DNA from: Mycoplana dimorpha
GTDB lineage: Bacteria; Pseudomonadota; Alphaproteobacteria; Rhizobiales; Rhizobiaceae
Assembly: GCF_003046475.1 (NCBI RefSeq)
Contig: NZ_PZZZ01000001.1
Location: forward strand, 702,287 to 756,899
Length of the DNA: 54,613 nucleotides
Direction: 5' to 3'
The position numbers were made by a program, and so were the translations under genes. This document shows positions 34,424 through 54,613 of the stretch, piece after piece (position 1 is the first letter of the stretch; the number at the start of each line of letters is the position of its first letter). The notes under the pieces were generated by a model. That model was not told where the DNA came from and ran no database searches. It worked only from the letters and a program-made list of their open reading frames with translations.

Positions 34424-34672
34424 GTGGATGGGAGTCAGGTAGAAGACCGGATAGATGAAGATGTGCTGCTCGGAAGGCTGGACGATGCGCGCACCCTGTT
34501 CGAGCGGCTTCTCTCGCTCTGCAACGACGTCGGGCTTCTCGCCGAGGAATACGGTCCGCGGTCCGGACGACAGGTCGGCAATTTCCCGCAGGCCTTTTCG
34601 CTCGCCCTGATCAACAGCGCCTACAACCTGGCTCATCACCGCGGGCCCGCCAAGGAACGCTCGAAAACGTGA
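34424..34672 (+). pseudogene. Glucoamylase (GH15) C-terminal remnant
   Basis: An open frame of 82 codons holds text typical of the end of glucoamylase-family GH15 proteins: [29 protein letters not shown] and [12 protein letters not shown], then [10 protein letters not shown]. Intact family members are about 600 residues and read FSHVALINSA, so here a residue or two is missing after FS. Only the last tenth of the gene remains, and nothing upstream in the intergenic region matches. It is a decayed fragment directly before the ThDP enzyme gene. Confidence 0.65.
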
Positions 34673-34772
34673 TCGCCCACGCCCGATATGGGCGGCGATT
34701 GTGCACCGGTGCCCGGGAACGATCGCGGCGCGCGTCAGTTCGTCCGGAGGCTGCGAACTGCGGAGAAATGCC

Positions 34773-36563
34773 ATGTCCATGACAGTGGGGGACTTCATCG
34801 TCGAGCGCCTGCACGCCTGGGGCGTGCGCAGGATATTCGGCTATCCGGGCGACGGGATCAACGGGGTTTTCGGCGCCCTAAACCGGGCCAAGGGTTCGCT
34901 GGAGTTCATCCAGGCGCGCCACGAGGAAATGGCCGCTTTCATGGCGTCGGCGCATGCAAAGTTCACAGGCGAACTCGGCGTCTGCATCGCGACCTCAGGC
35001 CCTGGCGCCTCGCATCTGGTCACCGGGCTCTACGATGCCAGGCTCGACCACCAGCCTGTCCTTGCGATTGTTGGCCAGCAGGCGCGGACAGCGATCGGAG
35101 GTCACTACCAGCAGGAAGTCGACCTCGTGTCGTTGTTCAAGGATGTCGCCGGCGAGTTCGTCCATCAGGCAAGCGCGCCCGCCCAGGTCCGGCATCTGGT
35201 CGACCGTGCCGCCAGGATCGCGCTTGCCAATCGCACGGTCACCGCGCTCATCCTGCCCAACGACCTTCAGCAAATGACATATGAGGACCCGCCGCGCCGG
35301 CACGGGACGATCCATTCCGGGATCGGCTTCAAGGCGCCGAAAATCGTTCCCCATGCGGGCGACCTGAAGCGAGCGGCCGATATCCTGAATGCCGGAAAGA
35401 AGGTGGCGATGCTGGTCGGCGCCGGCGCACTTGGGGCCACCGACGAGGTGATCGCCGTCGCGGATCGTCTGGGAGCCGGTGCCGCCAAGGCGCTGCTCGG
35501 CAAGGCGACGCTGCCCGACGACCTTCCATGGGTGACCGGATCGATCGGCATGCTGGGCACCAAGCCCTCGTGGAAGCTGATGAGCGGCTGCGACACGCTG
35601 TTGATGGTCGGCTCGGGCTTTCCCTATTCCGAATTCCTGCCCGAGGAAGGGCAGGCCAGGGCGGTTCAGATCGACATCAACCCAAACATGCTGTCGCTTC
35701 GCTACCCGATGGACGTCAACCTGGTCGGCGACGCTGCCGAGACCCTGAGTGCGCTATTGCCGCTGCTCGACCAGAAGGATGCCGACTGGCGCCGCGAAAT
35801 CGGCAAGGAGGTCGAGGCATGGTGGGAGACGCTTGAAGACCGGGCCCATGCGGAGGCCAATCCCATCAACCCGCAGCGGGTCACCTGGGAACTGTCGCCA
35901 CGGCTTCCGGGAGATTGCATCCTCACCAGTGATTCCGGCTCCTGCGCCAACTGGTTCGCGCGGGACATCAGGATGAGGCGCGGGATGAGCGCTTCGCTGT
36001 CAGGAGGCCTCGCCTCCATGGGCGCCTGCGTTCCCTACGCGATCGCCGCCAAGTTTGCCCATCCCGGTCGCCCGGTCATCGGGCTTGTGGGGGACGGCGC
36101 CATGCAGATGAACAACATGGCGGAGCTGATCACCGTCGCCAAGTACTGGAAAAGATGGTCGACACCCGGTTTCGTCATCGGCGTCTTCAACAATGAGGAC
36201 CTCAACCAGGTGACCTGGGAGCAGCGCGTGATGGAGGGCGATCCGAAGTTCGACGCCTCGCAGCGCATTCCGAACGTGCCGTATCACCGGTTCGCGGAGC
36301 TTATCGGCCTCAAGGGCCTCTATGTCGACCGGCCCGACGATGTGGGCCCGGCCTGGGACAAGGCCCTGGCGGCGGACCGGCCGGTGGTCGTCGAATTCAA
36401 GACCGACCCGGAAGTGCCGCCGCTGCCGCCGCATATCACCCTCACGCAGATGCAGCACCTGACGGAAGCGCTGGTTAAGGGCGATCCGCATGAAAGCGGC
36501 ATCGTGACCGGCACCGCCCGGCAATTGCTCGGGGCGCTGCTGCCGGGCGGAGACGAGAAGTGA
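34773..36563 (+). CDS. Thiamine-diphosphate enzyme, pyruvate oxidase/dehydrogenase-like
   Basis: This 596-residue protein resembles PoxB-type pyruvate oxidases. The N-terminal Pyr domain has MTVGDFIVERLHAWGVRRIF and the activating glutamate in RHEEMAAFMASAHAKF. The central domain (from about 190) resembles a nucleotide-binding fold. The C-terminal PP domain has the ThDP motif GDGAMQMNNMAELITVAKYW, ending in FNNEDLNQ. It probably decarboxylates pyruvate or a related 2-keto acid. The start at 34773 has GGAGAAAT upstream; the longer frame is less likely. It is the last clearly core-like gene before the accessory region. Confidence 0.85.
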   Translation: MSMTVGDFIVERLHAWGVRRIFGYPGDGINGVFGALNRAKGSLEFIQARHEEMAAFMASAHAKFTGELGVCIATSGPGASHLVTGLYDARLDHQPVLAIVGQQARTAIGGHYQQEVDLVSLFKDVAGEFVHQASAPAQVRHLVDRAARIALANRTVTALILPNDLQQMTYEDPPRRHGTIHSGIGFKAPKIVPHAGDLKRAADILNAGKKVAMLVGAGALGATDEVIAVADRLGAGAAKALLGKATLPDDLPWVTGSIGMLGTKPSWKLMSGCDTLLMVGSGFPYSEFLPEEGQARAVQIDINPNMLSLRYPMDVNLVGDAAETLSALLPLLDQKDADWRREIGKEVEAWWETLEDRAHAEANPINPQRVTWELSPRLPGDCILTSDSGSCANWFARDIRMRRGMSASLSGGLASMGACVPYAIAAKFAHPGRPVIGLVGDGAMQMNNMAELITVAKYWKRWSTPGFVIGVFNNEDLNQVTWEQRVMEGDPKFDASQRIPNVPYHRFAELIGLKGLYVDRPDDVGPAWDKALAADRPVVVEFKTDPEVPPLPPHITLTQMQHLTEALVKGDPHESGIVTGTARQLLGALLPGGDEK

Positions 36564-36654
36564 GGCCGAGGCACCGATCGATCGCCTCGAATGCGCGGCC
36601 TACTCGAAAGGGCAGGAGACAGACCGCCTTTGACACCAGCTTCTCCAGGCCGAG

Positions 36655-37323
36655 CTATGGGGCCGGTGTATCCGACGCGGCATCCCCTTCGGCTACAGTC
36701 GGCAATCCAAATTCAAGCCGTGCGCTCGCAAACTCTAGGTCAAGCACCTCAAGCAGTTTTTCGCCAAACTCTGCCGTCTCCTTGTTCGCGTCGGACCATC
36801 TAAAAAGACGTCCATCCTGTAATGACAGCACAGCAAAGTCATCCGGGCGGGCTTCAAGCGGATGGCGGTTCGCTACCATGCAAAGTGACGCGTTCACCAA
36901 GCCTGCGCTCAACGTTTGACGCGTGTTCCAAAGATGGACCGCAGTGCGACGGCCGTTCAACTCGATGAGAAAAGTCGGCGTGAATTCAACCTTGAAAAGA
37001 CTTTTTGGACTACTGAAAAGGAAGCTCTCGCAAGCCGAGAGGTCGCCGACGTTCTTCTGTCTCCATACAAAGAATTGACGGAGGCCGCGAATGGCCGAAT
37101 CGCGCTCAGCTTTTTTGCTGATCTCAGTCGCAGACGTCAGCGCCTCCAGAAAACCAAGGTTTTCGAATGCTATTTTCTGTACACGCTGACGAAGGCTTTT
37201 GTGAAAATCATATCCGCCGGTGCTCGGACGAAAGCGATCACGAACAAGGCGTTTCTGCGGCTTGGGATTGGAATTGATCAATTTTAAGAACGCGGAAAAT
37301 CCGAACTTAGGCACTTGGCTCAT
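36655..37323 (-). CDS. Hypothetical protein next to the transposon end
   Basis: A 222-residue protein (MSQVPKFGFSAFLKLINSNP) with no clear family. Its middle, FTPTFLIELNGRRTAVHLWN, and the RPDDFAVLSLQDGRLFRW segment suggest a nuclease-like alpha/beta fold, but I do not see a full catalytic motif. It starts between the left-end repeats of the Tn7-like element and a hairpin region. Its base composition is lower in GC than that of the upstream genes. It could be cargo of the element or resident DNA outside it. Confidence 0.6.
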   Translation of the reverse strand: MSQVPKFGFSAFLKLINSNPKPQKRLVRDRFRPSTGGYDFHKSLRQRVQKIAFENLGFLEALTSATEISKKAERDSAIRGLRQFFVWRQKNVGDLSACESFLFSSPKSLFKVEFTPTFLIELNGRRTAVHLWNTRQTLSAGLVNASLCMVANRHPLEARPDDFAVLSLQDGRLFRWSDANKETAEFGEKLLEVLDLEFASARLEFGLPTVAEGDAASDTPAP

Positions 37324-37440: not shown

Positions 37441-37474
37441 GGATCAATCGGCCTGTCGACCGCATGTCACCGAA

Positions 37475-37599
37475 CCCATAGAACGCCTCAGTAATTTTGT
37501 AAATAATTGAAATATATAGATAAAATAAAACATCTCGCCTCGGGAAGAGGGCGAAATAACCAATGAAACGCCTCAGGGCGATACCAATGAAATGCCTCA
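37475..37599 (+). repeat. Three direct repeats, candidate TnsB sites of one transposon end
   Basis: Three copies of a 16-mer occur at 37475-37490 (CCCATAGAACGCCTCA), 37560-37575 (CCAATGAAACGCCTCA) and 37584-37599 (CCAATGAAATGCCTCA). The last two differ at one base and the first at three. A weaker form, CATCTCGCCTCGGG, lies near 37530. They lie just beyond the tniQ terminator in an AT-rich stretch, which is the layout of transposase-binding arrays at Tn7-like ends. The outer terminus could be TGTCACC at 37465 or TGTCGACC at 37454. Confidence 0.6.
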
Positions 37600-37618
37600 A
37601 CTACTGCTGGGCAAAACA

Positions 37619-37665: not shown

Positions 37666-39504
37666 TTAAAGCGAAGGGAGGTCGGATCGCAGGTAAAACG
37701 TGGAACCGATCAGGCCTCTGTCCATCGCTAATGGAACGTCGCTCAACTGCTTTTTGAGATTGTTGAAATGGATGCCCGTCTCCTTGGCCAAAGTGAACAG
37801 CGAGACATACGTCTTCTGGAACCGCTCAATATCGGCATGGTCGATAACGGTCTGTGGGCACCGATTGATCGGATTCACCTCGATGCGGCTTCTGATGTGA
37901 CCCTGTGAGAGAAGTGCGGTTAACACCCTCGTGTTGACCCTAAGGGCTTTCTCAGCTTTTTTCAGCGAAATCGCATTGTGATCTTTTAACTGGACGGCTG
38001 CGCGGAGTTGAGCGAGGTTGACCATGACGGAAAGAAAGCCACGTTCTTCGGGGTTCTTGCGCACGCAAAGTTTCCGGCTCAACAGGAGATCGAGGATCTC
38101 TGACAGAGCACAACAAGCACGCTTTCGGGCATCAAGGATCCCGATGAACTGCCGTTCGTCGGTGGTCCACGGTGCCGCATGTCCGAGCAACCGTTCCAGG
38201 AACTCGTCCAAGGCAGACTTTTCGTATGCATATTGAACAAGTGGCTGCCGCTCGCCACGTGTGACATCGACGAGTGGCTCGATATAGGATCCTCCAAGGA
38301 CAGTCTTTTCATGTGGCCGCGGAACATTGAGGTAGGCCATGGCTTCCTTGAAGTTCAGCGACTGAATTGCTCGTTCGATGAAACTGTGCGCCGCGTCGGC
38401 GTCGAACAGTGCATGGTCGTCTACCTTCTTGTTGGCTTCTTCACTCAAATATCGTCCCATATAGAGGAGCTTCCGCAGTCGCTTCGGGTGAGTTTGATAC
38501 GTCAACGAAGCTGTCCGAATTGAATGGAGTTTGCGGACCTCAACGGGCTTGCCAAAGAGTTCGTCGCCTGAGCCGAGCGGCATCGTTTCGATGCAATGAG
38601 TTGCGAAAACCTCTCGAAGGCGGTCGTACTCTGCGTCGTCTGACTCGTGAGCGAGCCATTCGTAGATCCGGTAGAAAGCCATCTTGGGACCCTGTCCCGG
38701 TTTCGTAGGATCAAGTCTACCTTGCAGTTCGCTCAACAACTCTCGAACGCCGCTTTCCCCGCGGCAGGCGTAGGAATATCCGCGATCGCCGCACTGATAG
38801 AGTTGATCATCGGTGAGGTCCGACACGCGGACACGGACCCCGAAGTCGTAGGCTGCGCCGAGCATCTCGCACATCTTCCCGACGGCATCGAACCGGAAGC
38901 CATCGAGCCAGGTCTTTGCGGCAGGGAGGTGGGTGAGGCGGCCCAAGAGATACTCCTCGAGCGAGGACACACCACGATTGATGGCCAGATGCTGCGAGTT
39001 CCCCAACTGCGGCAGGGTACCGTGCAGACTGAGCGAGAAGTCGTGCACGGTCTGCGGGTTGAGATCATTGGCCAGTTCGACCAGCGCCAACCGGTGGTGA
39101 CGGCAAGTCCTGATGTGCGTAAGCGACCATTCTAACCGCTGATAGGGGCGGGCGGGCAAGGGGCAAGCAAACCTGGAGATATCGTCGTTTAGGCAGGCAA
39201 GGCACGCCCGTACACGACCACGGGCAAGCCCGGTGCGGTGTAGACGCTCGCCGCCCAACTCAAAGAGCCGATCGTCGATCCGCCGAATGGCTCTGAAATG
39301 CGAGGGGTCTGCTCGCCCACAACTTGCGAGTCTCGTCAGCGCATCGCTCTTGCCATCAACGACGTCTTGAAAACGAAATCCCATGTCAAGGCAGAACTGG
39401 CGTGCCGTGCGTCCATTGACCATGGCAGTTCTCGACGCAAAGCTGGATGCGAGTTCATCCTTGCCCAAAGGAACCGTCATGTTTCTCGGTAGCGGAGAGG
39501 CCAT
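37666..39504 (-). CDS. tniQ: TniQ/TnsD-type target selection protein of a Tn7-like transposon
   Basis: This 612-residue protein is the last gene of the transposition operon. The N-terminal part has the TniQ pattern: two cysteines at 101 and 104 (ACLACLNDD) and His/Cys at 130-137 (HIRTCRHH), a zinc finger. Its length and the C-terminal helix-turn-helix-like region (VSLFTLAKETGIHFNNLKKQ) fit a TnsD-type protein that would bind a specific target DNA, rather than the shorter CRISPR-coupled TniQ. The ATG overlaps the tnsC TAA (TAATG). No cas gene is nearby. Confidence 0.85.
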   Translation of the reverse strand: MASPLPRNMTVPLGKDELASSFASRTAMVNGRTARQFCLDMGFRFQDVVDGKSDALTRLASCGRADPSHFRAIRRIDDRLFELGGERLHRTGLARGRVRACLACLNDDISRFACPLPARPYQRLEWSLTHIRTCRHHRLALVELANDLNPQTVHDFSLSLHGTLPQLGNSQHLAINRGVSSLEEYLLGRLTHLPAAKTWLDGFRFDAVGKMCEMLGAAYDFGVRVRVSDLTDDQLYQCGDRGYSYACRGESGVRELLSELQGRLDPTKPGQGPKMAFYRIYEWLAHESDDAEYDRLREVFATHCIETMPLGSGDELFGKPVEVRKLHSIRTASLTYQTHPKRLRKLLYMGRYLSEEANKKVDDHALFDADAAHSFIERAIQSLNFKEAMAYLNVPRPHEKTVLGGSYIEPLVDVTRGERQPLVQYAYEKSALDEFLERLLGHAAPWTTDERQFIGILDARKRACCALSEILDLLLSRKLCVRKNPEERGFLSVMVNLAQLRAAVQLKDHNAISLKKAEKALRVNTRVLTALLSQGHIRSRIEVNPINRCPQTVIDHADIERFQKTYVSLFTLAKETGIHFNNLKKQLSDVPLAMDRGLIGSTFYLRSDLPSL

Positions 39505-40574
39505 TACTTGTTCCTCCTGTCGCGAACCTTCTTCTCCTTCATCGGCGCAGGATCGGCGCTGTGCGCGTCATTGTGGGCGTCTTGGAGCGCCATTGAGACA
39601 TCGATGTGATGCCAAACCTCTGCAGTGAAAACATTCCTATCAGCCGTGCAACCAGACCGTGCCTCATAGGCCTGGGCGAAGTGGGCTAGCGAGACAGCCG
39701 TCGCCTGATCTTGGAGAGCTTCCTGGATGGCGTCCTGGACAAATTCGATCGCGATACCGAGTTGGCCACCGGCCGCATGGATAAGGCGCGCTACGAAGGG
39801 CTGGTCTAAGGGCGCATCCAGCTCCATTTTGGCAATCTTCGTGATGATTCCGCGAACAGCCTTGGCCAAGAATTGGCCATCCGTTTCCAGATGCAGGTCA
39901 CCAAAGTGAACAAAACGGCTGCGTCGCTTGAGTTGGGTGTCGTTTTCGATGAAGGACGCAAACGAAGGCTTGCCGGACAAGATGAGCCAGACTGGCCAGT
40001 CGGACTGCTGCAGGAGGCCCTTCAGAGTATCGCGTACCTTCTGGACCTCGTTCACGTTTGCTGTGTCGACAGCATGCTGGATCTCGTCGATATGGACGTA
40101 ACGAACATTGCAGAGCTTCAGCCGATCGCGAACCATGTCCCAAACGACGTTTTCTCGCAGGTCTCTTTCCACTCTGTAGCCGAGTTGCTTCAGTAGGGTA
40201 TGACCTAGCTGCCGCAGTGTGCAGGGTGATGGGGCCTTCACGGAAACCAGTTGAGAGCCTTCGTGATTACACGGAGCTCCCCAAGCGCTTGCACGCAACC
40301 GGAAAATTCGCTCCAAAGAACGGGTCTTCCCCGCGCCCGGTTTTCCCGTGACAGCAAGGATGCGACCCTCAGCAAGCCTACCGACCCGCGAAGAGTGATC
40401 GTCATCGATCGAGCAGCTTAGCTCGCAACTCTCGATCAGCCGATCGAGTTCCGACTCTAGTAGCTGGTCCCGGCTATGTCCGATGTATGCCCGTAATACG
40501 GCCCTCATGGTCTCCACACGAGAGACCCTCTCGGTCACTTCCGGCTGTTCAATGCAGATGTCAGTATCATTCAT
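39504..40574 (-). CDS. tnsC: TnsC-type AAA+ regulator of a Tn7-like transposon
   Basis: TnsC links target recognition to the transposase in an ATP-dependent manner. I start at 40574 (MNDTDICIEQPEVTERVSRV), one base after the tnsB stop, giving 356 residues. Walker A is GKPGAGKT at residues 77-84 and Walker B is VRYVHIDEIQH at 157-167. The longer frame upstream runs in the wrong frame through the end of tnsB and is not real. The C-terminus RDRRNK overlaps the tniQ start. Confidence 0.9.
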   Translation of the reverse strand: MNDTDICIEQPEVTERVSRVETMRAVLRAYIGHSRDQLLESELDRLIESCELSCSIDDDHSSRVGRLAEGRILAVTGKPGAGKTRSLERIFRLRASAWGAPCNHEGSQLVSVKAPSPCTLRQLGHTLLKQLGYRVERDLRENVVWDMVRDRLKLCNVRYVHIDEIQHAVDTANVNEVQKVRDTLKGLLQQSDWPVWLILSGKPSFASFIENDTQLKRRSRFVHFGDLHLETDGQFLAKAVRGIITKIAKMELDAPLDQPFVARLIHAAGGQLGIAIEFVQDAIQEALQDQATAVSLAHFAQAYEARSGCTADRNVFTAEVWHHIDVSMALQDAHNDAHSADPAPMKEKKVRDRRNK

Positions 40575-40575
40575 T

Positions 40576-42723
40576 TCAAAACTCCATAAAAAAATCATCG
40601 TCATCATCGTCATCATCGGCGTTTTCCGCGTTGATGGCAGTTGGTTCGTCTGCGAGACCTGGGACCATCCCAGAAACCAGCGCGGACGGGTTGGCGATCT
40701 CATCGATTGAGCCATCTTCGGCCAGGAAATCGCGCTCGTCGGGCGTGACGTCTTCGATGCGGCGGCGACGATCGTCCACACTTGCAAGCGACCGGATCTG
40801 TTCCGAGGAATACGTTGGTGGCAGTAAGCCCGCCCGTTCTGTCGCCGCTTCGGAGAACGCGAGGATGTCCGCAATCGCTCTCAGACGCACGTCGCGGCTC
40901 GCTTTTGCTTGTTCGCCATGCTCTCGGCGGATCTTCTCGTTAGCAAGCTTCAAAGTGTGGAGGCTGACGCCATCCATTCCATCTTCACGGCAGGGCACCA
41001 TCAGCCAGCCTTCCTCGGTACGAACCGAGATAAAGCCAACGTCCGTCTGATCCACGCGAACGATCACCGCCTTCTTGCGGTTCCGCCTGCGAAGCCTCTG
41101 AAGCTCGTCATGGTAATAGTTCAAGCCAAACAGACGGACGCCATGCTTCTGGATTGTAGCCTCGATCGTCGTCCCAAAAATGGAACGAGCGATATCTGGA
41201 TCCAGCGTGTCCTCCGTTCCAAATTGACGATTCAACCTGATCCACGCGTTCAGAGGCGTCTCCTTCTTCAAGCCTTCGTGAGGCGTGTTGTGATAGACAT
41301 CCACCACATACCGAACGAGCACCTGATACAGTTCTTCCTTGTCGAGTACCGCCATCGCGTCTGGATCGTAGTCACCCTTGGCGACAACGTTTTCAAACGT
41401 CCGTCCGTGGAACCGAGCAATCAGTTGCTTGTGAAAGGTCGAGAACACCCGCTCAATCCGCGCGCGCATTTGGGGTACGCCCGCGGGCGGAAACATGATT
41501 TCGATCCCGAGGTCGGCGCACGCCGCGCGAAACTCCTGACTATACCAAGCCGAACCGGTGTCGGTGCAGATCGTCTGGATTTTACGACTGCCCATGTTCC
41601 ACGGAGACTCGCAGCCTGCCGCTTTGGCAATGGCCGACTTGTCGCTGACGACTTGGCGGAGGGTGGCTACCGCCGACTCCGACGAGGGAGCGCCGTCGAC
41701 GATGTGAAGGCCCACAATGGCGCGGGTGGCGCAATCGATAGCGACGGAAATCCAGAACCGGTTTCGCTCGATCTTTTCTTTGACCGCCACGGAAAGCTCC
41801 TGCCAAGCGGGATCCTTGTCCATCAGGGTTCGTAGGGACACATTCCATTCGTCGATCTCGATACGCTCGAGTGGCCTGGATACGCCCAAGCCCCCACGGA
41901 CGATATAGAACGCCTTGTTGGCCTTTTCGTCCCCCTCGCGAGCTGCCATGACTTCGAAGTCATTAAGTTTCGCGATCTCTTTTGACAAAGTTCGCACGCT
42001 CGGGATGAGGTACGGCTCCAGTCCGTCAACCTTTCGTTCTTCGTTCAACGCCTTTACCAACAGCCCGAGAGCTACATGTTGGTCAGCAAGCGATGGCTTG
42101 AGGGAATCCGCGTAACCCTCCGCGGCTTCTCGGAGCAAGGCGCGGATTTCCTCTGGCAGTCGGCTCTTCCGATTTCCGCTACGGCCAAGGTGGTCGCGCA
42201 ACGCCATCGGGTCGTAATTCCAAGCCTCATATGCGCGCAGCCACTTCCTCAACGCAGTGGGGCTGGGAGGGCGACGCGAGACCACCTTGCCCCCGCACCG
42301 CTTTGAGCCACCTCCCATTTTGATGATCTCGCCAGTAATGGTCGAGATCGCCATCGCCATCGATTCATCAGAACGGGTTGCCTTTCTCTGGGCTGCCATC
42401 CGCAGGAAACGGTCGCAGTACTCCTTTCGCCAAAGGATGGTTTCCTGTTGGGACATCTTCAAATTGGAGACGAGATCGCCCGCAGGTCTTGCTCGACGAG
42501 CACGCTCGGCACTTGCACGGTAGTAGCCGTTGGAAATCTGCAGAAGCCTTCCTTCCGAGCGAAGCTGATAAAGCTCTTCGTGGGACCGCCGGATCTCTTC
42601 ACCACTCTCATACCGGCGAAGGACGTGGTGGGTCTGATCGCTGGACATTGGTTCATGACCGACGCCATCGATGACGATCTTGTCGTGATGGCCGAAGGCC
42701 AAACGGGGTACAAACTGATTCAT
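40576..42723 (-). CDS. tnsB: TnsB-type DDE transposase
   Basis: This 715-residue transposase has the retroviral-integrase core with acidic triad Asp291 (ERIEIDEW), Asp388 (TICTDTGSAW) and Glu424 (MRARIERVF), followed by a Mu-type C-terminal domain. N-terminal residues 1-180 are DNA-binding helices. The extreme C-terminus is an acidic tail of eight aspartates followed by FFMEF, a plausible TnsC-binding hook. It overlaps tnsA by four bases. It would cut the 3' ends of the element and join them to target DNA. Confidence 0.92.
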   Translation of the reverse strand: MNQFVPRLAFGHHDKIVIDGVGHEPMSSDQTHHVLRRYESGEEIRRSHEELYQLRSEGRLLQISNGYYRASAERARRARPAGDLVSNLKMSQQETILWRKEYCDRFLRMAAQRKATRSDESMAMAISTITGEIIKMGGGSKRCGGKVVSRRPPSPTALRKWLRAYEAWNYDPMALRDHLGRSGNRKSRLPEEIRALLREAAEGYADSLKPSLADQHVALGLLVKALNEERKVDGLEPYLIPSVRTLSKEIAKLNDFEVMAAREGDEKANKAFYIVRGGLGVSRPLERIEIDEWNVSLRTLMDKDPAWQELSVAVKEKIERNRFWISVAIDCATRAIVGLHIVDGAPSSESAVATLRQVVSDKSAIAKAAGCESPWNMGSRKIQTICTDTGSAWYSQEFRAACADLGIEIMFPPAGVPQMRARIERVFSTFHKQLIARFHGRTFENVVAKGDYDPDAMAVLDKEELYQVLVRYVVDVYHNTPHEGLKKETPLNAWIRLNRQFGTEDTLDPDIARSIFGTTIEATIQKHGVRLFGLNYYHDELQRLRRRNRKKAVIVRVDQTDVGFISVRTEEGWLMVPCREDGMDGVSLHTLKLANEKIRREHGEQAKASRDVRLRAIADILAFSEAATERAGLLPPTYSSEQIRSLASVDDRRRRIEDVTPDERDFLAEDGSIDEIANPSALVSGMVPGLADEPTAINAENADDDDDDDDFFMEF

Positions 42724-43526
42724 CGTGCAATCTCCTCAACAAAAACTTCTTCGCCGCGTAACCGCACGGGGGTGTCATAGGAAATCAGACCGTTTCCGAT
42801 GGGAACGAGCTCACCATCGCCGATCAGGCAGACCAAGGCACTGAAGCCTGCCGCTTCAGGAATACTTGCCTTCAGAATGTCCGAGATCTTGGCGCAGCCG
42901 CGAAGCGTCATCGTGAAGTTCCTCATCCGAGCGACATCGGCATCCACGCGAAACGAGTTCGAATGAAAGATCAGACGTGCATTCGCCGCCCTTGCCCGGG
43001 TGATGTGGCGCTCGGTGCGAAGGACCATTGCATCAGCGCATCCACGTGGCCGCTGTTCTCGCATCAGCTGAAGGTCATCAACAATTCCGCTCTTGGCGAC
43101 CTGGTTCTCCTGTTTGATGGCAAAGGCAATGCGCTTGCCGCATCGAAGGCGAGCCTCAAGATCAAAGGTGTGAGAGCGCTTTCGTCGCTCCCTGTCGTGA
43201 AACGTCACCGGTGGTGGCTGGTCGATAAGGTCGACCACGTCAGGGCGGGCTAGCAGGATATACATGGCGTCCCGCTCCATGGTGCTTTCGTAGTGCATCT
43301 CTCGGTGAGAGAGCGGGTTCACGATGGTCCCGCGAAATGATCCTCTTCCGCGAAGACTGATTTTTCGCGAGGCCACGCTTGCGGATGGAGGAATCCAAAG
43401 CTGTCCCGCACGTTCCGAAGGCGGGGTTAGTCCAGCACTCATCATGCGCCGTTCCTGCTTGCGGCGGGGGCCGACAGGTGCGTCTCCTTGATACTTGAGG
43501 TGAGGGGGCAATTTATTGTTAGACAA
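42720..43526 (-). CDS. tnsA: TnsA-type endonuclease of a Tn7-like transposon
   Basis: TnsA cuts the 5' strands so that the element moves by cut-and-paste. The 268-residue protein has the restriction-endonuclease-like triad Glu80 (HYEST), Asp122 (HTFDLEA) and Lys138 (AIKQE), with an 80-residue N-terminal extension. The start is TTG at 43526, supported by GGAG nine bases upstream (TGGAGATTTGTGCC). It is the first gene of the operon and its stop overlaps tnsB in ATGA style. The presence of TnsA argues against a replicative, TnsA-less element. Confidence 0.85.
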   Translation of the reverse strand: MSNNKLPPHLKYQGDAPVGPRRKQERRMMSAGLTPPSERAGQLWIPPSASVASRKISLRGRGSFRGTIVNPLSHREMHYESTMERDAMYILLARPDVVDLIDQPPPVTFHDRERRKRSHTFDLEARLRCGKRIAFAIKQENQVAKSGIVDDLQLMREQRPRGCADAMVLRTERHITRARAANARLIFHSNSFRVDADVARMRNFTMTLRGCAKISDILKASIPEAAGFSALVCLIGDGELVPIGNGLISYDTPVRLRGEEVFVEEIAR

Positions 43527-43660
43527 GGCACAAATCTCCAGTTATCGGCGCGCGATTGCGGCCGATTGATCTCAATCGGGAGAGAATTCTCCGCGTGTCA
43601 GACCGCAGTCTGAGTGGTTACCTGGCTATTCGGAGATGTGCCGTTGTAAGGGAGGGCGCG
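43527..43660. promoter_or_regulatory. Promoter region of the transposition operon
   Basis: This 134-base gap separates tnsA from a divergent small gene. It holds GGAGAGAATTCTCC (43579-43592, palindromic) and CAGACCGCAGTCTG (43600-43613). A weak inverse copy of the left-end repeat (TGAGTGGTTACCTGG at 43611) is about 10 of 16 in agreement, so it may be a degenerate right-end site, but this is not proven. Confidence 0.4.
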
Positions 43661-43816
43661 ATGTCGATTTTGATGCACATATGCGACCTCCTTTCTCGTC
43701 GGTGGTTTTCGCTGAGCCAGACATGCTCGCGCGAATGGGTGCTTCTGGCGCAGGCAGCGCTAGAAGGCGTCAGATCACACACGCCAGTTGTGACCTTAGT
43801 GATTTCTAATGTTTGA
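43661..43816 (+). CDS. Small hypothetical protein
   Basis: A 51-residue open frame (MSILMHICDLLSRRWFSLSQ, then TCSREWVLLAQAALEGVRSH) is preceded by GGGAGGGCGCG, a good ribosome binding site. It reads like a real small protein but I know no family. It is divergent from tnsA and could be transposon-encoded or lie just outside. Confidence 0.4.
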   Translation: MSILMHICDLLSRRWFSLSQTCSREWVLLAQAALEGVRSHTPVVTLVISNV

Positions 43817-44031
43817 GAGAGGGAAGTTGGCCGATGGTTTTGGCATCGGATACATCCATACCGAGCCGTTAGGCGGTCGTGCCGAATTCCCGGGCCGATT
43901 TCGATATGGTTGTTATACGCATGTTCGCGATCCTACTTCGCCCGAACAGGGTCGGGGACTCGGGTTATCGCAGCCGTCGGTCCTGATTGCAATCTTGACA
44001 GACGCCAAGTCGAAAACATAGTTAACAGAGA

Positions 44032-45195
44032 TTGCACTGTGATCGTTGCGTTTTAGGAACAAGGCACGATGCTGGCGAACTGCGAACGCTCGGGTGGATC
44101 TCCCCGTCGTTTGGTTGTTCGATGTCCCCGCTTGATGGCCTGGTACTCCTCGAGCATGATACCTGTCATCTTGGTGACAACATCGTCAGTCCTGTCCAGC
44201 GAGGAGCCAGCGGGAAGCTGCATTCAGGTTGTTAACGCGCTGCTGGAATGCCTTGATGGTCTCGAGGGTCGGGAAGGCGTCGTAGTCGTCGGAGCTACGA
44301 ACAACTCTGATAACATTGACCCAGCAATCTTGCGCTCGGGGCGGCTGGATCGGCAGATTGAGATCCCGCTTCCATCGGAGCAAGATCGAATTGCAATCCT
44401 GGCTCAGCACATCGATCACTGCATCGAAGTCACCGAACTGGAAGGTCTGAAAGCGTGGACTGCTGGCATGAGCGGCGCAGACCTGGCCAAGGCCGCCAGA
44501 GATGCTCGTCGTCTAGCGAGGCGTGCCAAGCGTCCGCTTAATCTGGACGACGTGCGTGCCGTATTGCCTGCTCCTATCGACATCACGCCCGAGCATCGAA
44601 GAGCACTTGCTATTCATGAGGTAGGCCATACTGTTGTTGGATTAGCTTTGGGTCACGGCATCTACAGGGCACAAAGATCATCGGAACCAAGATCGCGCGC
44701 GCGGAAACGCAGCAAGGCGGCGCGGCCTACTTTGAATTGCCGCAGGCAAGTTATCGGGATCGGGAGTTCTTTCTGATTTATATCGCCGTGCTGCTTGCTG
44801 GCCTGGCTGCAGAGGAGGTTTGCCTGGGGCACCGAGGAGATGGTGCTGGACTCGGCAACACGTCAGATCTTGCCATGGCGACCCGGGTCGCCACGATGAT
44901 CGAGGCAGTGTTGGGGATGGGGATCACATTGCGCCATAGCGCCGCGTACGATGATGGCGCGTTGGAAGGCATCCGTATTGCCGACCCGAGGCTATGTTCA
45001 CGGATAGAAGTGATCCTTGCCGAGCAGTTTGCGCGGGCGAAAGCACTTATCGTCCAGTTCCGCCCGCTGGTAGATCGATTGGTAGAGGTTTTGGATGAAG
45101 TAGGTGAACTGACGCCTGAGGCCGTTGCGAAGGCAGTGCGGTCAACTGTGCTTACTCCGCTTCTGCGGCCGCCAAAGCAATCTTCGGCCAAATGA
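44032..45195 (+). pseudogene. FtsH-like AAA protease, frameshifted and truncated
   Basis: Three frames hold consecutive parts of an AAA+ zinc metalloprotease of the FtsH type. First comes a Walker-B-like region (SPLDGLVLLEHDTCHLGDN), then after a shift near 44225 the second region of homology (GATNNSDNIDPAILRSGRLD) and the M41 motif HEVGH. After a second shift near 44665 it reads KIIGTKIARAETQ, then ELPQASYRDREFF and AVLLAGLAAEE. The N-terminal half with Walker A is missing. It cannot make an active protease. The left break lies close to the tnsA-side of the transposon operon. Confidence 0.8.
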
Positions 45196-45485
45196 ACGAC
45201 CTGCGAAGGTAGTCACATTGACCAGAACTCCCTCTGCGAGGTGTGATAAGCAACGTGGCGACGGAGGCACTTGATGGGGCCACTGAGTTCAGCCTGGAAT
45301 ACAGCTTTGAGCAGCAGAATTCGCTTGCGTACCAATGTCCGCAGCTGCAGCGGCTCCACTTGCAGTGGGCCTTCGGATATTGAGGGAATTGAGGAGGACC
45401 CGCAGTCCTGTCACCACGGATCTCTCCAAGCAGATTATCGGTGATTTGTGATCTCGTTCTGACACGAGATCCGGCACTCGTGGCG

Positions 45486-46316
45486 CTAGGCTGCAGCAGC
45501 CTCTCGCTGCTCGAAAGCCCGCAACATGGCCGCGACGACAGATGCACGTCGCTCGAGCTTCGTGTCCGGCGCTCCCACCCAGCCCCAGTTCGTGGGGTAG
45601 TGGTACCATCCCATCCGGATCGCGCCGCCCTCAAAGTCTCCCTCAGCGCAGGAAACTCCCTTTAGACCGTTAAACGGGTGTCGAGGCATCGTTGAACTTG
45701 TAGGCGCAGCCATCATACCCGGCAAAGACATCCAGCGGGGGCGGCGTGCCTGATACAGCGTAGGGTCGATCAGCAGATCGGCTTCAGGAACACGGGTGAC
45801 CATATGGCCGCTCCAATGTCCCGGCTTTTCTGGCTGATTAGAAAGTGGATCACCGATGGACAAGGGCTGCAGATACTCTCTGTCCCGTTTCGCCTCAATC
45901 TCCAGGTTTACGGAAACGACTTCCGCCGACTCAAAGCCAACCTCTTTCAGAAAGTCACGAACGGTCATAGAGGCCAGAATGCAGCGCTTTTTGGAATCTG
46001 GATTGCTGATCCACGGTTGGCGAGCAAACGTGGAATGCATCGTATTCGAAATAACCCAGAGAGCACGGCTTAAATCAGCGGGTAGGTTAGGGTGCAAGAC
46101 GAGCATATCGTTGAGAAACATTCTGATCCTTTGAGTTGGCTCAACCTGCCAAGCGAAATGCATAGCCGGGCCGAGCAGAGGAAATTGGAGATGAAAGGCA
46201 ATCGCCATACGCCCCGACGGGGCTGGCGCACGATTGCCTTTTTCAGGGGCGTACGATCTCGTTGCCAACGCAGTCGGCACGCTAAGCACATTGAACAAAT
46301 TGTTCAGTGCCAGCAT
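45486..46316 (-). CDS. Hypothetical protein with a possible transglutaminase-like fold
   Basis: A 276-residue protein of no named family. A cysteine near residue 111 (KKRCILASMTVRDFLKEVGF), a histidine in SGHMVTRVPEADLLIDPT and an aspartate in that LIDPT stretch follow the Cys-His-Asp order of transglutaminase-like or papain-fold enzymes. The N-terminal 30 residues look poor and a start at MAIAFHLQFP may be better. No ribosome binding site is clear. The gene stands alone among decayed sequences, so it may itself be damaged. Confidence 0.5.
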   Translation of the reverse strand: MLALNNLFNVLSVPTALATRSYAPEKGNRAPAPSGRMAIAFHLQFPLLGPAMHFAWQVEPTQRIRMFLNDMLVLHPNLPADLSRALWVISNTMHSTFARQPWISNPDSKKRCILASMTVRDFLKEVGFESAEVVSVNLEIEAKRDREYLQPLSIGDPLSNQPEKPGHWSGHMVTRVPEADLLIDPTLYQARRPRWMSLPGMMAAPTSSTMPRHPFNGLKGVSCAEGDFEGGAIRMGWYHYPTNWGWVGAPDTKLERRASVVAAMLRAFEQREAAAA

Positions 46317-46641
46317 GTACAGGACGGTACCGGGCAGCGCAGTGATTGGTGAGGAATCTTAGGGTATGCAGTCGATGTCCACCGCTGCTCTGAAGAACTT
46401 GGTGGCATCCGGCCTTCGGCAGCGGAGGTGGATGACTCAGCGCGTCGACAGACTGCGGGATTCCCGTGTTTCTATTCGTATCGCTGACTGTTGTGTCATC
46501 GGACTTCCTTTTGGAGCGATGGCGTTATACCTGGGAAGTTCTCAATGCTCGTTAACGAAAACGTTAGAATTCTAAAGAAAGCAGAAATTGTCGTGTCGCC
46601 GGACTTTGGCAGGCCTGCACATCCGGCGCGTGCCGCGACGC
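46317..46641. other. Intergenic region without a gene
   Basis: This 325-base stretch has only short frames without ribosome binding sites. I see no RNA gene or mobile-element border in it. Confidence 0.4.
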
Positions 46642-47161: not shown

Positions 47162-47773
47162 CTAGTCTCGCCATCGCTTCACCCTTGTTTCCGGACCCAG
47201 GATCGCTTCATCTAGATCGACATCGACGAAACGATGAAGGATCAGCGAAGCTAGGCCTGCCATCGGGTTGGTCTCTCGAAAAGCGGTCAAACACTCAGAG
47301 ATTGTCAGCGATCCATGCTCGTCAAAAGCTGCGAGTAGGCGAACGCGGTCTCCTAAGGGACAGGTCCAACGGGCGTACCTCAGCAAGTCGCGTGCATTGC
47401 GGTACCGAAAGCTCTGGGGATCAACAGGATCTGCTACCGAGTATTGGTATCCCGCGGCCCTCGCGCGATCTGCAATCCAGGATGGCGTTCCAGAGTTAGC
47501 GTCCCGGACATCAATCAGGAAAGCTTGATCGCCTTTGAATACCAGGAAATCGGGCACATGAGCCTGAGGACCTGCCTGCAACTCCAAAGGAAGGCAGGAC
47601 CAATTCGTCACCTCTCGATTGATTTCGAGTAGAACTGCGAACTCGAAAGCCGTCTTTCCGCGAAAGAGAGGCTGTCCCAAGCAACGAAGGGCTGCGTGCA
47701 GCTTGAATCCAGATGCGGCGGCTTGGCCTCTAGCGGCAACAAGTGGCGATTGGCATTTGCGGATTTTTGTCAC
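47162..47773 (-). CDS. Hypothetical protein with a TnsA-like nuclease pattern
   Basis: A 203-residue protein starting with GTG at 47773, with GGAG five bases upstream. Residues 43-90 read FEFAVLLEINREVTNW, then HVPDFLVFKGDQAFLIDV, with acidic residues at 44 or 50, 75 and 88. That is the order of the TnsA-type endonuclease fold, although the usual final lysine (EVK) is replaced by LIDV. It could be a diverged transposon endonuclease or a regulatory relative. It lies about 3.6 kb from the intact tnsA. Confidence 0.55.
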   Translation of the reverse strand: MTKIRKCQSPLVAARGQAAASGFKLHAALRCLGQPLFRGKTAFEFAVLLEINREVTNWSCLPLELQAGPQAHVPDFLVFKGDQAFLIDVRDANSGTPSWIADRARAAGYQYSVADPVDPQSFRYRNARDLLRYARWTCPLGDRVRLLAAFDEHGSLTISECLTAFRETNPMAGLASLILHRFVDVDLDEAILGPETRVKRWRD

Positions 47774-47952: not shown

Positions 47953-48540
47953 CTACTGATTTAGCTCAGCGAGATGATCAAAGACCACCGCGGATACCGC
48001 GACGGTCGGCTGCACACGATTGGCGAAGGGTACGCTATCTGTCCACACGGGCCGCACGAGCCACTTTGCGTCCATTGGGTTATAAAGGCCCGGGAGCTTG
48101 AAGTGCTCATGAATCTGAAGGAAATGCCTAATATTCATCGTTGCAATGGGCGCTTTGTGCACAATGGCCGAAGCTGCGATCGAAAGGTCTTCACCGAGCT
48201 TTGGATTTTTGGCGAAGCTTGATGGTAGCCATAGATTTCTCAGCGCGGGCAGAGACGTCATGTGCGCGTATAATTGGGCTGTCGGCAGATCCATTCCCAG
48301 GAAGCGAACGTTTGAGGCTAAAATTGAGTTAAGCCATTCCCGAAGAAATTTGCTTCTTTCCGGATTTTTCTCAGCGATATTTTTAATACCTCGCTCAATT
48401 TCAATGATCGCTCCAACAGGGATAGCCACAGGCGTCCCCAAATCATTCAACCAAGCAATCATTTGCGGACTCGGCCGCTTTGTCGCAAAATGACTCCATA
48501 CGTTTGTATCGAGCACAAATAAGCTTGGATTCGAGACCAT
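47953..48540 (-). CDS. PIN-domain toxin, VapC/FitB type
   Basis: This 195-residue protein has the PIN RNase pattern: Asp in VLDTNVWSHF (about residue 10), Glu in AIIEIERG (about 46-48), and Asp in GEDLSIAASAIVH (about 117). PIN toxins cleave RNA, usually tRNA or mRNA. The fourth acidic position that often follows (TRNxxDF) is here TMNIRHF. There is a C-terminal extension past the usual 140 residues. Its likely antitoxin gene is divergent 101 bases away, not cotranscribed in the usual order. Confidence 0.75.
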   Translation of the reverse strand: MVSNPSLFVLDTNVWSHFATKRPSPQMIAWLNDLGTPVAIPVGAIIEIERGIKNIAEKNPERSKFLREWLNSILASNVRFLGMDLPTAQLYAHMTSLPALRNLWLPSSFAKNPKLGEDLSIAASAIVHKAPIATMNIRHFLQIHEHFKLPGLYNPMDAKWLVRPVWTDSVPFANRVQPTVAVSAVVFDHLAELNQ

Positions 48541-48902: not shown

Positions 48903-49441
48903 CCGCAGCGTAGAGTACAAAAGAAGACGTTTGATGAGAAGGCCGCGACGCAATTCCAGAATGCAACCAAGCTACAGTATTTGCCCGGCGTAAAGATCAC
49001 CTACGCGCCAAGCCCCGTTCATGTCCAGCGCACGGCAAAGACCATCTCAACCTACGTTTTGTCGAATTTCAGTTCCGAAATTGACCTCGCGATAACGATA
49101 GCGGTGCAGAGCGCAGGAAACCTGCTGGGCATGGGCTCGCGACCCACGACCTCCGCATCGGCGCTCTGCCGATCATGCGCCCAAACCCGTTCGGTGAAGG
49201 TGCGGATTTCAGATACGACCGGTGGGAGATCATGAGCCTGGGCCTCCTTGCCGATTCCTGGTTGATCCCGTTTCTGTTATGGCAGCCGCCCGGACTTGGC
49301 CGGGTGCTCGATCCTCGGCTGCGGTGCTTCAGCCAAAGGCATCCGGCTTGCGTCTCTCGCTCCGCCTGGCACGCGGATCGTAAGAAGTCGAAGTCATCAC
49401 GACAGATTTTCGTAGGGACTAGTCGGGACTCGGCCGAATAA
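48903..49441 (+). pseudogene. Broken gene of unknown function
   Basis: Two overlapping frames look like one interrupted gene. The first reads PGVKITYAPSPVHVQRTAKT and TIAVQSAGNLLGMG; after a shift near 49135 the second reads LRIGALPIMRPNPFGEGADF and RYDRWEIMSLGLLADSWLIP. No family was recognised. There is no good start codon. This fills the gap between the antitoxin and SRAP genes. Confidence 0.35.
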
Positions 49442-50018
49442 GCTGGACGTCAAGGCTTCCCTGTGAAAGAGGACGCAGGAGTTGGTCTTCTGGTTTGGAT
49501 AGGTCCAGCCAATGTCGCCAGTGGTCCGGTCTCAAGACAACCACCTGCCGATCATGTATGGGGGCGACATCGGGTCCTGGTTCCGTTGTCAGCATCGTAA
49601 ATGATGGGGGCTCATTCCCTTCACCGTCACGCCACAGGCCTGCGATCGCCAGGAACGCCGACCCCCGAAGCGTGAAACGATGTTTCGCTTTCGGGAATTT
49701 CTTGCCCGTGAATTCGAAGAACGCGCTGGCGGGTATCAAACAACGCTTGCTGTTTCCGAAGTGCCGTCCCTCCGAGCGAAAATTGAAGACAGGCCCGCCT
49801 TTTCTTCCGGTGGGCGACGGGAAACCGAACCGCATTGGCGATAGCTCGACCACGGCCGCCGACGCCGCCCGCATCACGGGCCCGATGTCTCCGACCTTGA
49901 TATCGTCGGCCCGGGGAAGATCGAGTTCGCTCTGGTGTGACGGAATCTCGAGCGCAAGCTCCTGCATCATCTTGCAGTACTCGGCGTACAAAATGTGCTG
50001 TTCGTAGTCGTTACACAT
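49419..50018 (-). CDS. SRAP-domain protein (YedK/HMCES family)
   Basis: SRAP proteins bind abasic sites in single-stranded DNA through a covalent link to Cys2. The 199-residue protein starts MCNDYEQHIL, so Cys2 is kept. The N residue in VFNFRSEGRH, the glutamate in ASAFFEFTGKK and the histidine in VAPIHDRQVVVL complete the active-site set. It is convergent with upstream sequence and divergent from small genes leading to exonuclease III. It would protect abasic sites in exposed DNA. Confidence 0.88.
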   Translation of the reverse strand: MCNDYEQHILYAEYCKMMQELALEIPSHQSELDLPRADDIKVGDIGPVMRAASAAVVELSPMRFGFPSPTGRKGGPVFNFRSEGRHFGNSKRCLIPASAFFEFTGKKFPKAKHRFTLRGSAFLAIAGLWRDGEGNEPPSFTMLTTEPGPDVAPIHDRQVVVLRPDHWRHWLDLSKPEDQLLRPLSQGSLDVQLIRPSPD

Positions 50019-50403: not shown

Positions 50404-50406
50404 TCG

Positions 50407-51195
50407 ATGAAGATCGCGACCTATAACGTCAATGGCGTGAATGGCCGTCTCGACGTGCTGCTGCGATGGCTGGAACAAGCGTCACCCGATGTCGTGTGCC
50501 TTCAGGAGCTGAAATCACCGGACGCCAAGTTCCCGGTCAAGGCCATCGAGGCCGCTGGCTACGGCGCAATCTGGCATGGCCAGAAAAGTTGGAATGGCGT
50601 GGCGATCCTTGCCAAGGGAAAAGAGCCGCTGCTGACCCGCAAAGGCTTGTCGGGCGACGCCGATGACCCGCACAGCCGCTATATCGAGGCAGCCGTTGAT
50701 GGCATGCTGTTTGGTTGCCTGTACCTGCCAAACGGTAATCCCTATCCGGGACCCAAGTTCAGCTACAAGCTCGCTTGGTTTGAGAGGCTGGCCGCCTACG
50801 CCGCCGAGCTTCTCGAACTCAAGGTCCCGGTGGTTCTCGCTGGCGACTACAACGTCATGCCAACGGAGCTGGATGTTTACAAGCCCGAACGCTGGCTCGA
50901 CGACGCATTGTTCCGCGTCGAGGTCCGCGACGCCTTTCGTCGTCTTGTCGACCAAGGGTGGACAGACGCGTTGCGGCAACTGCATCCGGGCGAACGCATC
51001 TACACCTACTGGGACTACTTCCGAAATGCTTTCGCAAGAGATGCAGGGCTCAGGATCGATCACTTCCTGCTCAGTCCGCAGCTCGCTGCCAAACTAGTGA
51101 GAGCCGGAGTCGACAAGGAAGTCCGCGGATGGGAACACGCCAGTGATCATGCCCCGACCTGGATCGAACTGTCTGATGCCCCACACAGAAAATGA
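50407..51195 (+). CDS. xthA: Exonuclease III family AP endonuclease
   Basis: This enzyme cuts DNA at abasic sites and trims 3' blocks in base-excision repair. The 262-residue protein has the family blocks MKIATYNVNGVNGRLDVLLR, VVCLQELK (metal-binding glutamate), YIEAAVDG and VVLAGDYNVMPTELD, then RIDHFLLSPQ and ASDHAPTWIEL (catalytic His). It follows the small basic protein by three bases. Rhizobia have several XthA-like proteins, so this copy may be secondary. Confidence 0.9.
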   Translation: MKIATYNVNGVNGRLDVLLRWLEQASPDVVCLQELKSPDAKFPVKAIEAAGYGAIWHGQKSWNGVAILAKGKEPLLTRKGLSGDADDPHSRYIEAAVDGMLFGCLYLPNGNPYPGPKFSYKLAWFERLAAYAAELLELKVPVVLAGDYNVMPTELDVYKPERWLDDALFRVEVRDAFRRLVDQGWTDALRQLHPGERIYTYWDYFRNAFARDAGLRIDHFLLSPQLAAKLVRAGVDKEVRGWEHASDHAPTWIELSDAPHRK

Positions 51196-54300: not shown

Positions 54301-54555
54301 ATGATCACGGGTCCGCAATGCCGTGCAGCGCGAGCGCTGGTCGAAGTTACGAGGAGCAAACTGGCACTTCGCTCGGGTATCGATGAATCGGTGATAGAGG
54401 GATTTGAGCGCATCATCGATGAACCAGCGCCTGATGTGATCGCGACGCTGGAAAAGGTCCTGCAAGAGCTAGGGGCAATTTTTATTGAAGAGAACGGTGG
54501 CGGAAAAGTAAGCGCTGGTTTTCCCCCACCTTCCGGATCAGCGTGTGATTGTTGA
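54301..54555 (+). CDS. Short HTH (XRE-like) regulator
   Basis: An 84-residue protein begins MITGPQCRAARALVEVTRSK and continues LALRSGIDESVIEGFER, a helix-turn-helix of the XRE/Cro type, then VIATLEKVLQELGAIFIEEN. The ATG at 54301 has GGAGAGGA about six bases upstream; longer in-frame extensions to 54193 lack one. Such short HTH proteins are frequent in rhizobial genomes. Confidence 0.75.
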   Translation: MITGPQCRAARALVEVTRSKLALRSGIDESVIEGFERIIDEPAPDVIATLEKVLQELGAIFIEENGGGKVSAGFPPPSGSACDC

Positions 54556-54582
54556 TGTTGTTGCCGAACGAGGCTTCGACAT

Positions 54583-54613
54583 ATGACGATTACAGGGTTT
54601 ACGCATGGCACCA
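54583..54613 (+). CDS. Start of a gene cut by the window edge
   Basis: An ATG at 54583 begins MTITGFTHGT and is open to the end of the window. The upstream GAGG at 54570 is weak. Too little sequence remains to identify it. Confidence 0.25.
   Translation, partial: MTITGFTHGT

Follow-up and report, generated by a model that had tools for sequence, protein, structure and literature searches.

A Tn7-like tnsA-tnsB-tnsC-tniQ operon in Mycoplana dimorpha, probably the transposition module of a large element inserted beside nrdJ

The stretch of Mycoplana dimorpha DNA analysed here (54,613 nucleotides, hereafter the window) carries an intact and tightly coupled operon, tnsA-tnsB-tnsC-tniQ, on the minus strand at 37666-43526. 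Its genes are as follows.

42720..43526, minus strand: tnsA, endonuclease (NCBIfam match below cut-off; residues invariant in alignment)
40576..42723, minus strand: tnsB, DDE transposase, 715 aa (Pfam, alignment, solved relatives)
39504..40574, minus strand: tnsC, AAA+ regulator, 356 aa (Pfam, alignment)
37666..39504, minus strand: tniQ/tnsD, 612 aa, likely target selector with a CCCH zinc finger (Pfam, alignment)

tnsA and tnsB overlap in ATGA, and tnsC and tniQ overlap in TAATG. The tnsC start at 40574, 1 nt past the tnsB stop, is preferred over a TTG at 40874. In Pfam, TnsB matches Mu-transpos_C (2.5e-8, above cut-off) and rve (4.2e-7, slightly below), TnsC matches AAA_22 (4e-15) and TniB (7e-13), and TniQ matches the TniQ family (8e-16). 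The best solved relatives of TnsB are PseTnsAB (5e-49) and Tn6677 TnsB (8e-46). TnsA has no match in Pfam and no homologue among solved structures in the PDB, and its match to the NCBIfam TnsA-like model (3.5e-8) is far below the model cut-off (33 of 110 bits). In alignments where many rows are trimmed to the tblastn stretch, the following residues are invariant: E84/D122/K138 of TnsA (8 aligned rows), D330/D388/E424 of TnsB (6 rows), G177-x-x-G-x-G-K and D263-E264 of TnsC (7 rows), and C101/C104/C134/H137 of TniQ (6 rows). From the known motifs, we take these to be the TnsA, DDE, Walker, and zinc residues, respectively. Judged by its sequence, the operon is a Tn7-like engine, with TnsA, TnsB, TnsC, and TniQ all present. 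The genome has a single TniQ match and a single TnsB match, and a TnsB scan of genome contigs found no relative.

On the tniQ side, the end of the element is placed at 37465 (TGTCACCGA), 201 bp beyond tniQ, next to the 5-bp duplication CCGCA. The features around this end are listed below.

36655..37323, minus strand: ORF222, outside the element, downstream neighbour of nrdJ elsewhere (gene order in other genomes)
37460..37464, no strand: target-site duplication CCGCA, tniQ side (partner on contig C10 of the same genome, 39298-39302)
37465..37481, plus strand: tniQ-side terminus, TGTCACCGAACCCATAG (match with the C10 terminus and with that of the relative G176)
37473..37491, plus strand: putative TnsB site 1, one of three 19-bp copies
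37558..37576, plus strand: putative TnsB site 2, one of three 19-bp copies
37582..37600, plus strand: putative TnsB site 3, one of three 19-bp copies

The terminus agrees with the tniQ-side terminus of G176 at 14/17 positions. An alternative terminus, TGTCGACC at 37454, pairs with the nrdJ side at 7/18 only and was rejected. A homology break at about 36603-36612 was also set aside as an end, because it marks the border of a piece duplicated on contig C15 (95% copy) and lies outside the element. The initial annotation had described four overlapping or abutting, apparently intact genes with tniQ at one end, and both points hold: the key residues are invariant, and only the 201 bp with the three 19-bp repeats separate tniQ from the end. 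Its view that this is unlike typical layouts does not hold, since the four genes occur together in the same order in 11 of 18 relatives, and those inspected have their cargo upstream of tnsA.

Motif, PWM, repeat, and pair searches for a distal end within the window gave no convincing candidate. The second end lies at position 39297 of C10, another contig of the same genome, 19 bp beyond the stop codon of nrdJ, the gene for B12-dependent ribonucleotide reductase. The same CCGCA is found there, so that the 5-bp target-site duplication is present at both ends on two contigs, and the terminus matches that of the tniQ side at 13/17 positions (13/18 in an 18-bp comparison). CCGCA together with 13 terminal matches was reached by none of 200 shuffles; none of 2000 real segments reached 13, and six reached 12. 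An unconstrained local alignment of both ends is at chance level (194/300 controls equally high), and no site at the nrdJ-side end resembles the three tniQ-side repeats (best score 3.6 vs 23-25). The 10-mer GCATAGTTTG is common to the distal ends of this element and G176.

The two ends can be joined through IS66 copies, whose 8-bp flanks pair contig C1 with C18 and C18 with C10. The order C1-IS66-C18-IS66-C10 suggested by these duplications would give an element of about 67 kb with two IS66 copies inside it. Reading nrdJ on C10 as a rearrangement was dropped for this contig order after the IS66 flanks matched. Thus "compact", the word of the initial annotation, fits the operon but not the element. 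Its cargo in the window is as follows.

44069..45195, plus strand: FtsH-like AAA/M41 protease relic, N-terminal half missing, two frames (Pfam)
47162..47773, minus strand: second TnsA-like protein, 203 aa (NCBIfam TnsA-like, 8.6e-7, below cut-off)
47953..48540, minus strand: PIN-domain protein (Pfam)
49419..50018, minus strand: SRAP, inside the inferred element (domain scan)
50407..51195, plus strand: exonuclease III-like gene, inside the inferred element (sequence comparison)
54508..54613, plus strand: first 106 bp of an IS66 copy, where contig and window stop (8-bp flank)

The 8-bp flank of this IS66 copy, GCGGAAAA, is the same as the flank at the end of C18. The FtsH-like relic has matches upstream of tnsA in all five closest elements, and the PIN gene is also found in G176, G238, and G089. 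A type II CBASS is located near the nrdJ end.

Gene order in other genomes points to the site before insertion. Twelve other genomes have ORF222; in seven of them, representing seven other genera, it follows nrdJ at a distance of 0.2-1.9 kb downstream. As the gene just beyond the tniQ end thus adjoins nrdJ downstream in seven genera, the empty site would be nrdJ-ORF222. Of what the initial annotation proposed to look for, the ends, the duplication, and the gene order of the empty site were found, but no base-exact empty site was obtained. The best empty-site genome, G313, carries an end-like piece at that site, which counts against this reading. Eight other genomes, each of a different genus and G023 among them, have tnsB 20-69 kb downstream of nrdJ on the same strand; within 111 kb, this is the case in 10 of 31 other TnsB-bearing genomes. 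Against such a link, nrdJ is on another contig in 16 of the 32 TnsB-bearing genomes and on the same contig in another arrangement in five.

Very probably, then, the operon encodes the transposition machinery of a Tn7-like transposon that measures about 67 kb and separates nrdJ from ORF222. The sequence itself shows the genes, the two termini, the duplication, and the gene order of the empty site. The layout would run from nrdJ through the first end, CBASS and further cargo, and tnsA-tnsB-tnsC-tniQ to the second end and ORF222. TnsB would bind the inverted ends (TGTCA...) and, together with TnsA, excise the element, while TnsC would connect the TnsA/TnsB complex to TniQ. The conserved 3' end of nrdJ is most likely what TniQ, a long selector of the TnsD type, recognises. 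This would set the insertion 19 bp beyond the nrdJ stop codon without disrupting the gene, as Tn7 does beside glmS. The element may be mobile, but the single TniQ and TnsB matches in the genome, the two IS66 copies inside the element, and the decayed cargo gene give no support to the view of the initial annotation that it is active or recently active.

A shorter element of about 12 kb, with its distal end in the window near 48.9-50.1 kb and the C10 terminus by nrdJ arising in a separate event, is unlikely. The cargo common to the closest relatives does end at the PIN gene, save a weak SRAP match in G176, and the DNA from about 50161 onward is conserved in rhizobial replicons. However, within 43527-54613 no partner that carries the duplication matches the 37465 end at more than 7/18, and neither of the two TGTCACC-type candidates (44179 and 52778) has the duplication. 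The C10 terminus has it, and the nrdJ-ORF222 order is seen in other genomes.

The single copy in the genome, and the position of several relatives downstream of nrdJ, would also fit a domesticated transposase module fixed at a conserved locus, the case that the initial annotation named as refuting a transposon. This is highly improbable, as relatives occupy many contexts on plasmids and chromosomes with differing cargo, and the ends and duplication here are intact. G176 has the same kind of ends at a different site with its own duplication, TAACA. Among six other genomes of the genus, two have no TnsB match at 1e-3, only one has a match better than 1e-60, and the top identity, over part of the protein, is 40%. 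The least probable reading is a decayed CRISPR-associated transposon (CAST) whose CRISPR part has been lost. Of the TnsB proteins with solved structures, those of type I-F CASTs (Tn6677, PseCAST) are nearest, but a crude scan of the window, C18, and C10:1-39310 found no CRISPR-like array, in agreement with the initial annotation of a Tn7-like operon without CRISPR. TniQ is also long (612 aa), and the part of Faure et al. 2023 consulted associates direct target selection with proteins longer than 400 aa. Among the proteins scanned (part of the ORFs), no cas gene was seen.

Tn7, described in part in PMC10293859, shares with the element TnsA, TnsB, TnsC, and a TniQ/TnsD protein, as well as TGT-type ends, a 5-bp duplication, and an insertion point shortly beyond a conserved gene at its 3' side. 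It targets glmS, whereas the site here adjoins nrdJ. In addition, tnsA is here about 61 kb from its end of the element with tniQ at the opposite end, and there is a single selector, with no TnsE in Pfam scans of 20 proteins (part of the ORFs). Tn7-like transposons in the part of Benler et al. 2021 (PMC8649781) consulted have terminal arrays of about 20-bp TnsB sites, to which the three repeats at the tniQ end may correspond, and likewise defence genes in their cargo; "nrdJ" and "ribonucleotide" are absent from the main text covered by a term search. The operon can also be compared with the Tn5053/Tn402 group. The two share a DDE transposase, a TniB-like ATPase, and TniQ. Tn5053/Tn402 elements have no TnsA and carry the resolvase TniR, whereas here tnsA comes first and the four genes include no resolvase.

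In the literature searched, on Tn7-like elements and on nrdJ islands, no report of nrdJ as a docking site was found. Tentatively, and with slightly less than even confidence, we suggest that the nrdJ 3' end serves generally as a docking site across this bacterial family, to which at least two, probably three or more, Tn7-like lineages came independently via different long TniQ proteins. If so, nrdJ would be added to the genes at which the Tn7 family is known to dock (glmS, comM, and tRNA genes among them), and the defence island (here CBASS) beside the same gene in different genera would be explained. It would also offer a natural test of unlike TniQ proteins converging on one target, and a protein-guided selector homing to a conserved alphaproteobacterial gene where safe large insertions are wanted. 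Location at nrdJ takes 5 changes on the TniQ tree (shuffled mean 5.5; 191/500 shuffles as low) and 5 on the TnsB tree (5.5; 213/500). This lack of clustering gives no support for a single nrdJ-binding TniQ type or for one TniQ clade at nrdJ. Among the 10 nrdJ-linked genomes, ends with a duplication at nrdJ were found only in G023, whose matching ends and duplication ACTAT lie 25 bp beyond the nrdJ stop. No convincing pair was obtained for G277, G009, and G314, and no convincing ends for G238 and G089; in G206 the ends look right by eye, but their 5-bp flanks do not match. As part of the same tentative reading, a copy of the nrdJ 3' block would lie in these elements immediately within the nrdJ-abutting end, by which nrdJ keeps its terminator after insertion, and later deletions would produce solo ends, with G313 and G167 as examples. 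About 130 bp inside the nrdJ end of the present element there is a hairpin-GAACAAA block resembling a block downstream of nrdJ elsewhere, which could mean a history of several steps.

The tnsA-tnsB-tnsC-tniQ operon that the initial annotation placed at 37666-43526 is real: its four genes lie on the minus strand and have invariant residues. It belongs to a proposed Tn7-like element; the following features lie in it or beside it.

42720-43526, minus strand: tnsA (NCBIfam match below the cut-off; invariant residues)
40576-42723, minus strand: tnsB (domain matches)
39504-40574, minus strand: tnsC (domain matches; the start at 40574 is better than the TTG at 40874)
37666-39504, minus strand: tniQ (domain matches)
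36655-37323: ORF222, just outside the tniQ-side end of the element
44069-45195: FtsH-like AAA/M41 gene, a two-frame relic
47162-47773, same strand as tnsB: second TnsA-like protein

Genes in the operon overlap by 1 to 4 bases, with a gap of one base between tnsB and tnsC. In the alignments, E84, D122, and K138 of TnsA (8 rows), D330, D388, and E424 of TnsB, Walker A and Walker B of TnsC, and four cysteine/histidine residues of TniQ are invariant. PseTnsAB and Tn6677 TnsB are the best solved relatives of TnsB; a solved homologue of TnsA was sought and none was found. The whole genome has one TniQ match and one TnsB match.

All four genes exist in the same order in 11 of 18 relatives examined by tblastn (a TnsA match alone is missing in five and TniQ in one; another shows just TnsA and TnsB). 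The cargo upstream of tnsA differs between relatives; Methylobacterium radiotolerans, for example, has CBASS there, and Paracoccus aminovorans has ars genes. Among the matches listed, 13 plasmid records have TnsB at ≥80% coverage and 28-35% identity, including Paracoccus, Methylobacterium, Rhizobium, Ensifer, and Phaeobacter. Within the family, TnsB matches (E ≤ 1e-60) are found in 32 of 297 genomes, this one counted; the closest (36-44%) are in the genomes G176, G238, G089, G108, and G067. Ensifer adhaerens has a tandem pair of tniQ genes (locus L024, 15933-19330), and G004 (L068/L069) has a tniQ gene on either side of tnsABC.

In this genome nrdJ, the gene of B12-dependent ribonucleotide reductase, is located on contig C10. 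ORF222 is matched in 12 of 296 other genomes, and its neighbourhood was surveyed in 11 of them, all but G227. In G313, G075, G090, G292, G035, G084, and G096 (the last two read from coordinates), ORF222 lies 0.2-1.9 kb downstream of nrdJ on the same strand, the G035 copy being broken. In G277 a tns operon sits between nrdJ and ORF222, and in G148, G217, and G273 the two genes are on separate contigs.

The tniQ-side end of the element lies at 37465. Between the tniQ stop and this position are three 19-bp repeats and, by eye, a terminator-like hairpin. The terminus TCGGTGACA is common to this element and that of G176, 201 bp past tniQ here and 195 bp there. G176 has a full end pair, TGTCGCCAGTCGCATAGTT and TGTCACCGACCGCAAAGTT, which match at 13/18 positions, carry TAACA on both flanks, and span ~41.8 kb; the distal end contains the motif CGCATAGTTYGCACTCAAA twice, 21 bp apart, and the G176 element does not adjoin nrdJ. 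On C10, past the nrdJ stop codon in the nrdJ sense, 14 bases are followed by TGCGG and then TGTCATCGGAAGCATAGTTTGG. TGCGG also follows the tniQ end. This pair was spotted by eye first and then ranked top by an automatic scan. Its 13/18 terminal match was equalled by none of 200 shuffles and by none of 2000 real segments, six of which reached 12. No partner of the 37465 end that also has its duplication matches at more than 7/18 positions within 43527-54613. The 10-mer GCATAGTTTG of the nrdJ-side end recurs in the G176 distal end. Against this pairing, the nrdJ-side end has no site resembling the tniQ-side repeats, and local alignment of 200 bp from each end, left free, scored no higher than random sequence (194 of 300 controls reached its score). 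Of the empty site, TSDs and boundaries that the initial annotation proposed to look for, the ends and a 5-bp duplication were found; an end-like piece separates nrdJ from ORF222 in G313, the best empty-site genome, so the empty site is not defined to the base.

Contig C1, and with it the window, breaks off 106 bp into an IS66 copy. Seven contig ends run into one edge of this IS and eight into its other edge. IS66 generates 8-bp duplications. The 8-bp flank GCGGAAAA pairs C1 with the end of C18, and GTACTATC is shared by the starts of C10 and C18. As a control, CCTGGGGC pairs C14 with C12, and the flanks of C9 and C16 are 7/8 identical (six of seven left-edge and six of eight right-edge flanks were compared, leaving out the start of C14 and the ends of C4 and C7). 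The matching flanks suggest the order C1-IS66-C18-IS66-C10-nrdJ, in the required orientation. The three pieces of the element (17043 + 5811 + 39191 bp) would add up to 62045 bp, and to 67001 bp once two IS66 copies are included, with the IS66 length (2478 bp) borrowed from a relative.

From Faure et al. 2023 and what is known of Tn7, direct target binding is expected of a long TniQ. TniQ (612 aa) would bind the nrdJ 3' end, TnsC would bridge TniQ to TnsAB, and cut-and-paste insertion would follow. A term search of Benler et al. 2021 (PMC8649781) and Faure et al. 2023 found neither "nrdJ" nor "ribonucleotide" in their main texts, and no paper on nrdJ as a Tn7-like site was among the literature matches listed, by title and abstract start.

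The position of nrdJ was determined for all 32 TnsB-bearing genomes. tnsB is found 20-69 kb downstream of nrdJ on the same strand in eight other genomes of eight genera (G277, G206, G009, G023, G314, G311, G131, and G153), compared with a chance expectation, by our own estimate, of ~0.2 of 31 within 70 kb. The distance is 101 and 111 kb in G067 and G072; five genomes (G315, G026, G166, G028, and G136) have both genes on one contig in another arrangement, and 16 have them on different contigs. Ends were searched in five nrdJ-linked elements, G311, G131, and G153 lying outside this search. G023 ends match at 14/20, with the duplication ACTAT, 25 bp past the nrdJ stop; those of G206 look similar by eye and carry no exact duplication; and in G009, G314, and G277 no matching ends with duplication were found. 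G313 and G167 lack a TnsB match at 1e-60; in both, a piece that resembles the G023/G206 end by eye remains beside nrdJ. The six nrdJ-linked rows are spread over the trees of TniQ (26 rows) and TnsB (25 rows), with 5 changes on each tree against a mean of 5.5 after shuffling, and well-supported branches require at least three changes for TniQ and at least four for TnsB. This scatter implies that the nrdJ site was either acquired several times or lost several times.

In 10 of 29 loci (L168, L170, L172, L173, L178, L180, L184, L186, L188, and L191), a GAACAAA-like motif, mostly behind a hairpin by eye, follows nrdJ at a distance of at most 330 nt. The motif also lies just inside the nrdJ-side ends of the element here, G023, and G206 (C10, L196, and L198). 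G067 (L126/L127) has a 43-residue piece of the NrdJ C-terminus ~1.3 kb past tniQ, oriented away from the element; its full nrdJ is ~101 kb off.

By the nrdJ end, C10 carries CBASS genes, which we read as type II (best PADLOC E-values: phospholipase 2e-92, cyclase 3e-142, E1-E2 1.5e-137, and JAB 1e-60). Farther inside are two proteins weakly like ZorA (1e-4) and ZorB (4e-4), a DNA polymerase III alpha-like protein, two Y-family polymerases, and a UvrD-like helicase. A crude scan of the three element pieces found no CRISPR-like array, and no cas gene or TnsE appeared among those ORFs whose products were scanned. An FtsH-like match lies upstream of tnsA in all five nearest relatives (G176, G238, G089, G108, and G067); a counterpart of the window's PIN gene is present in three of them and one of the second TnsA-like gene in one. 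ClpX has an accessory role in Mu transposition, and by analogy one might imagine such a role for the FtsH-like protein.

Sixteen plasmid records, rhizobial nearly throughout, encode relatives of the second TnsA-like protein. An AAA/ATP-binding gene follows it, with a metallophosphoesterase gene near, in all five annotated loci inspected; the window's copy has neither adjoining. Of its 15 listed records, 11 recur in the list of 40 TnsB records, and in all 11 (several near-copies) the gene lies 10-135 kb upstream of tnsB and on the other strand. Inside the inferred element, one stretch of a small gene (58 aa) occurs twice, the two copies being 90% identical (window 50258-50319 and C10:33290-33351). 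Outside it, 34461-36603 (GH15 tail, TPP enzyme, and start of an enolase-like gene) has a 95% copy on contig C15. A further match to C15, of the 26 bases at 34436-34461, lies 14 kb from the first, so the window copy (34436-36603) looks like a duplicate carrying an internal deletion.
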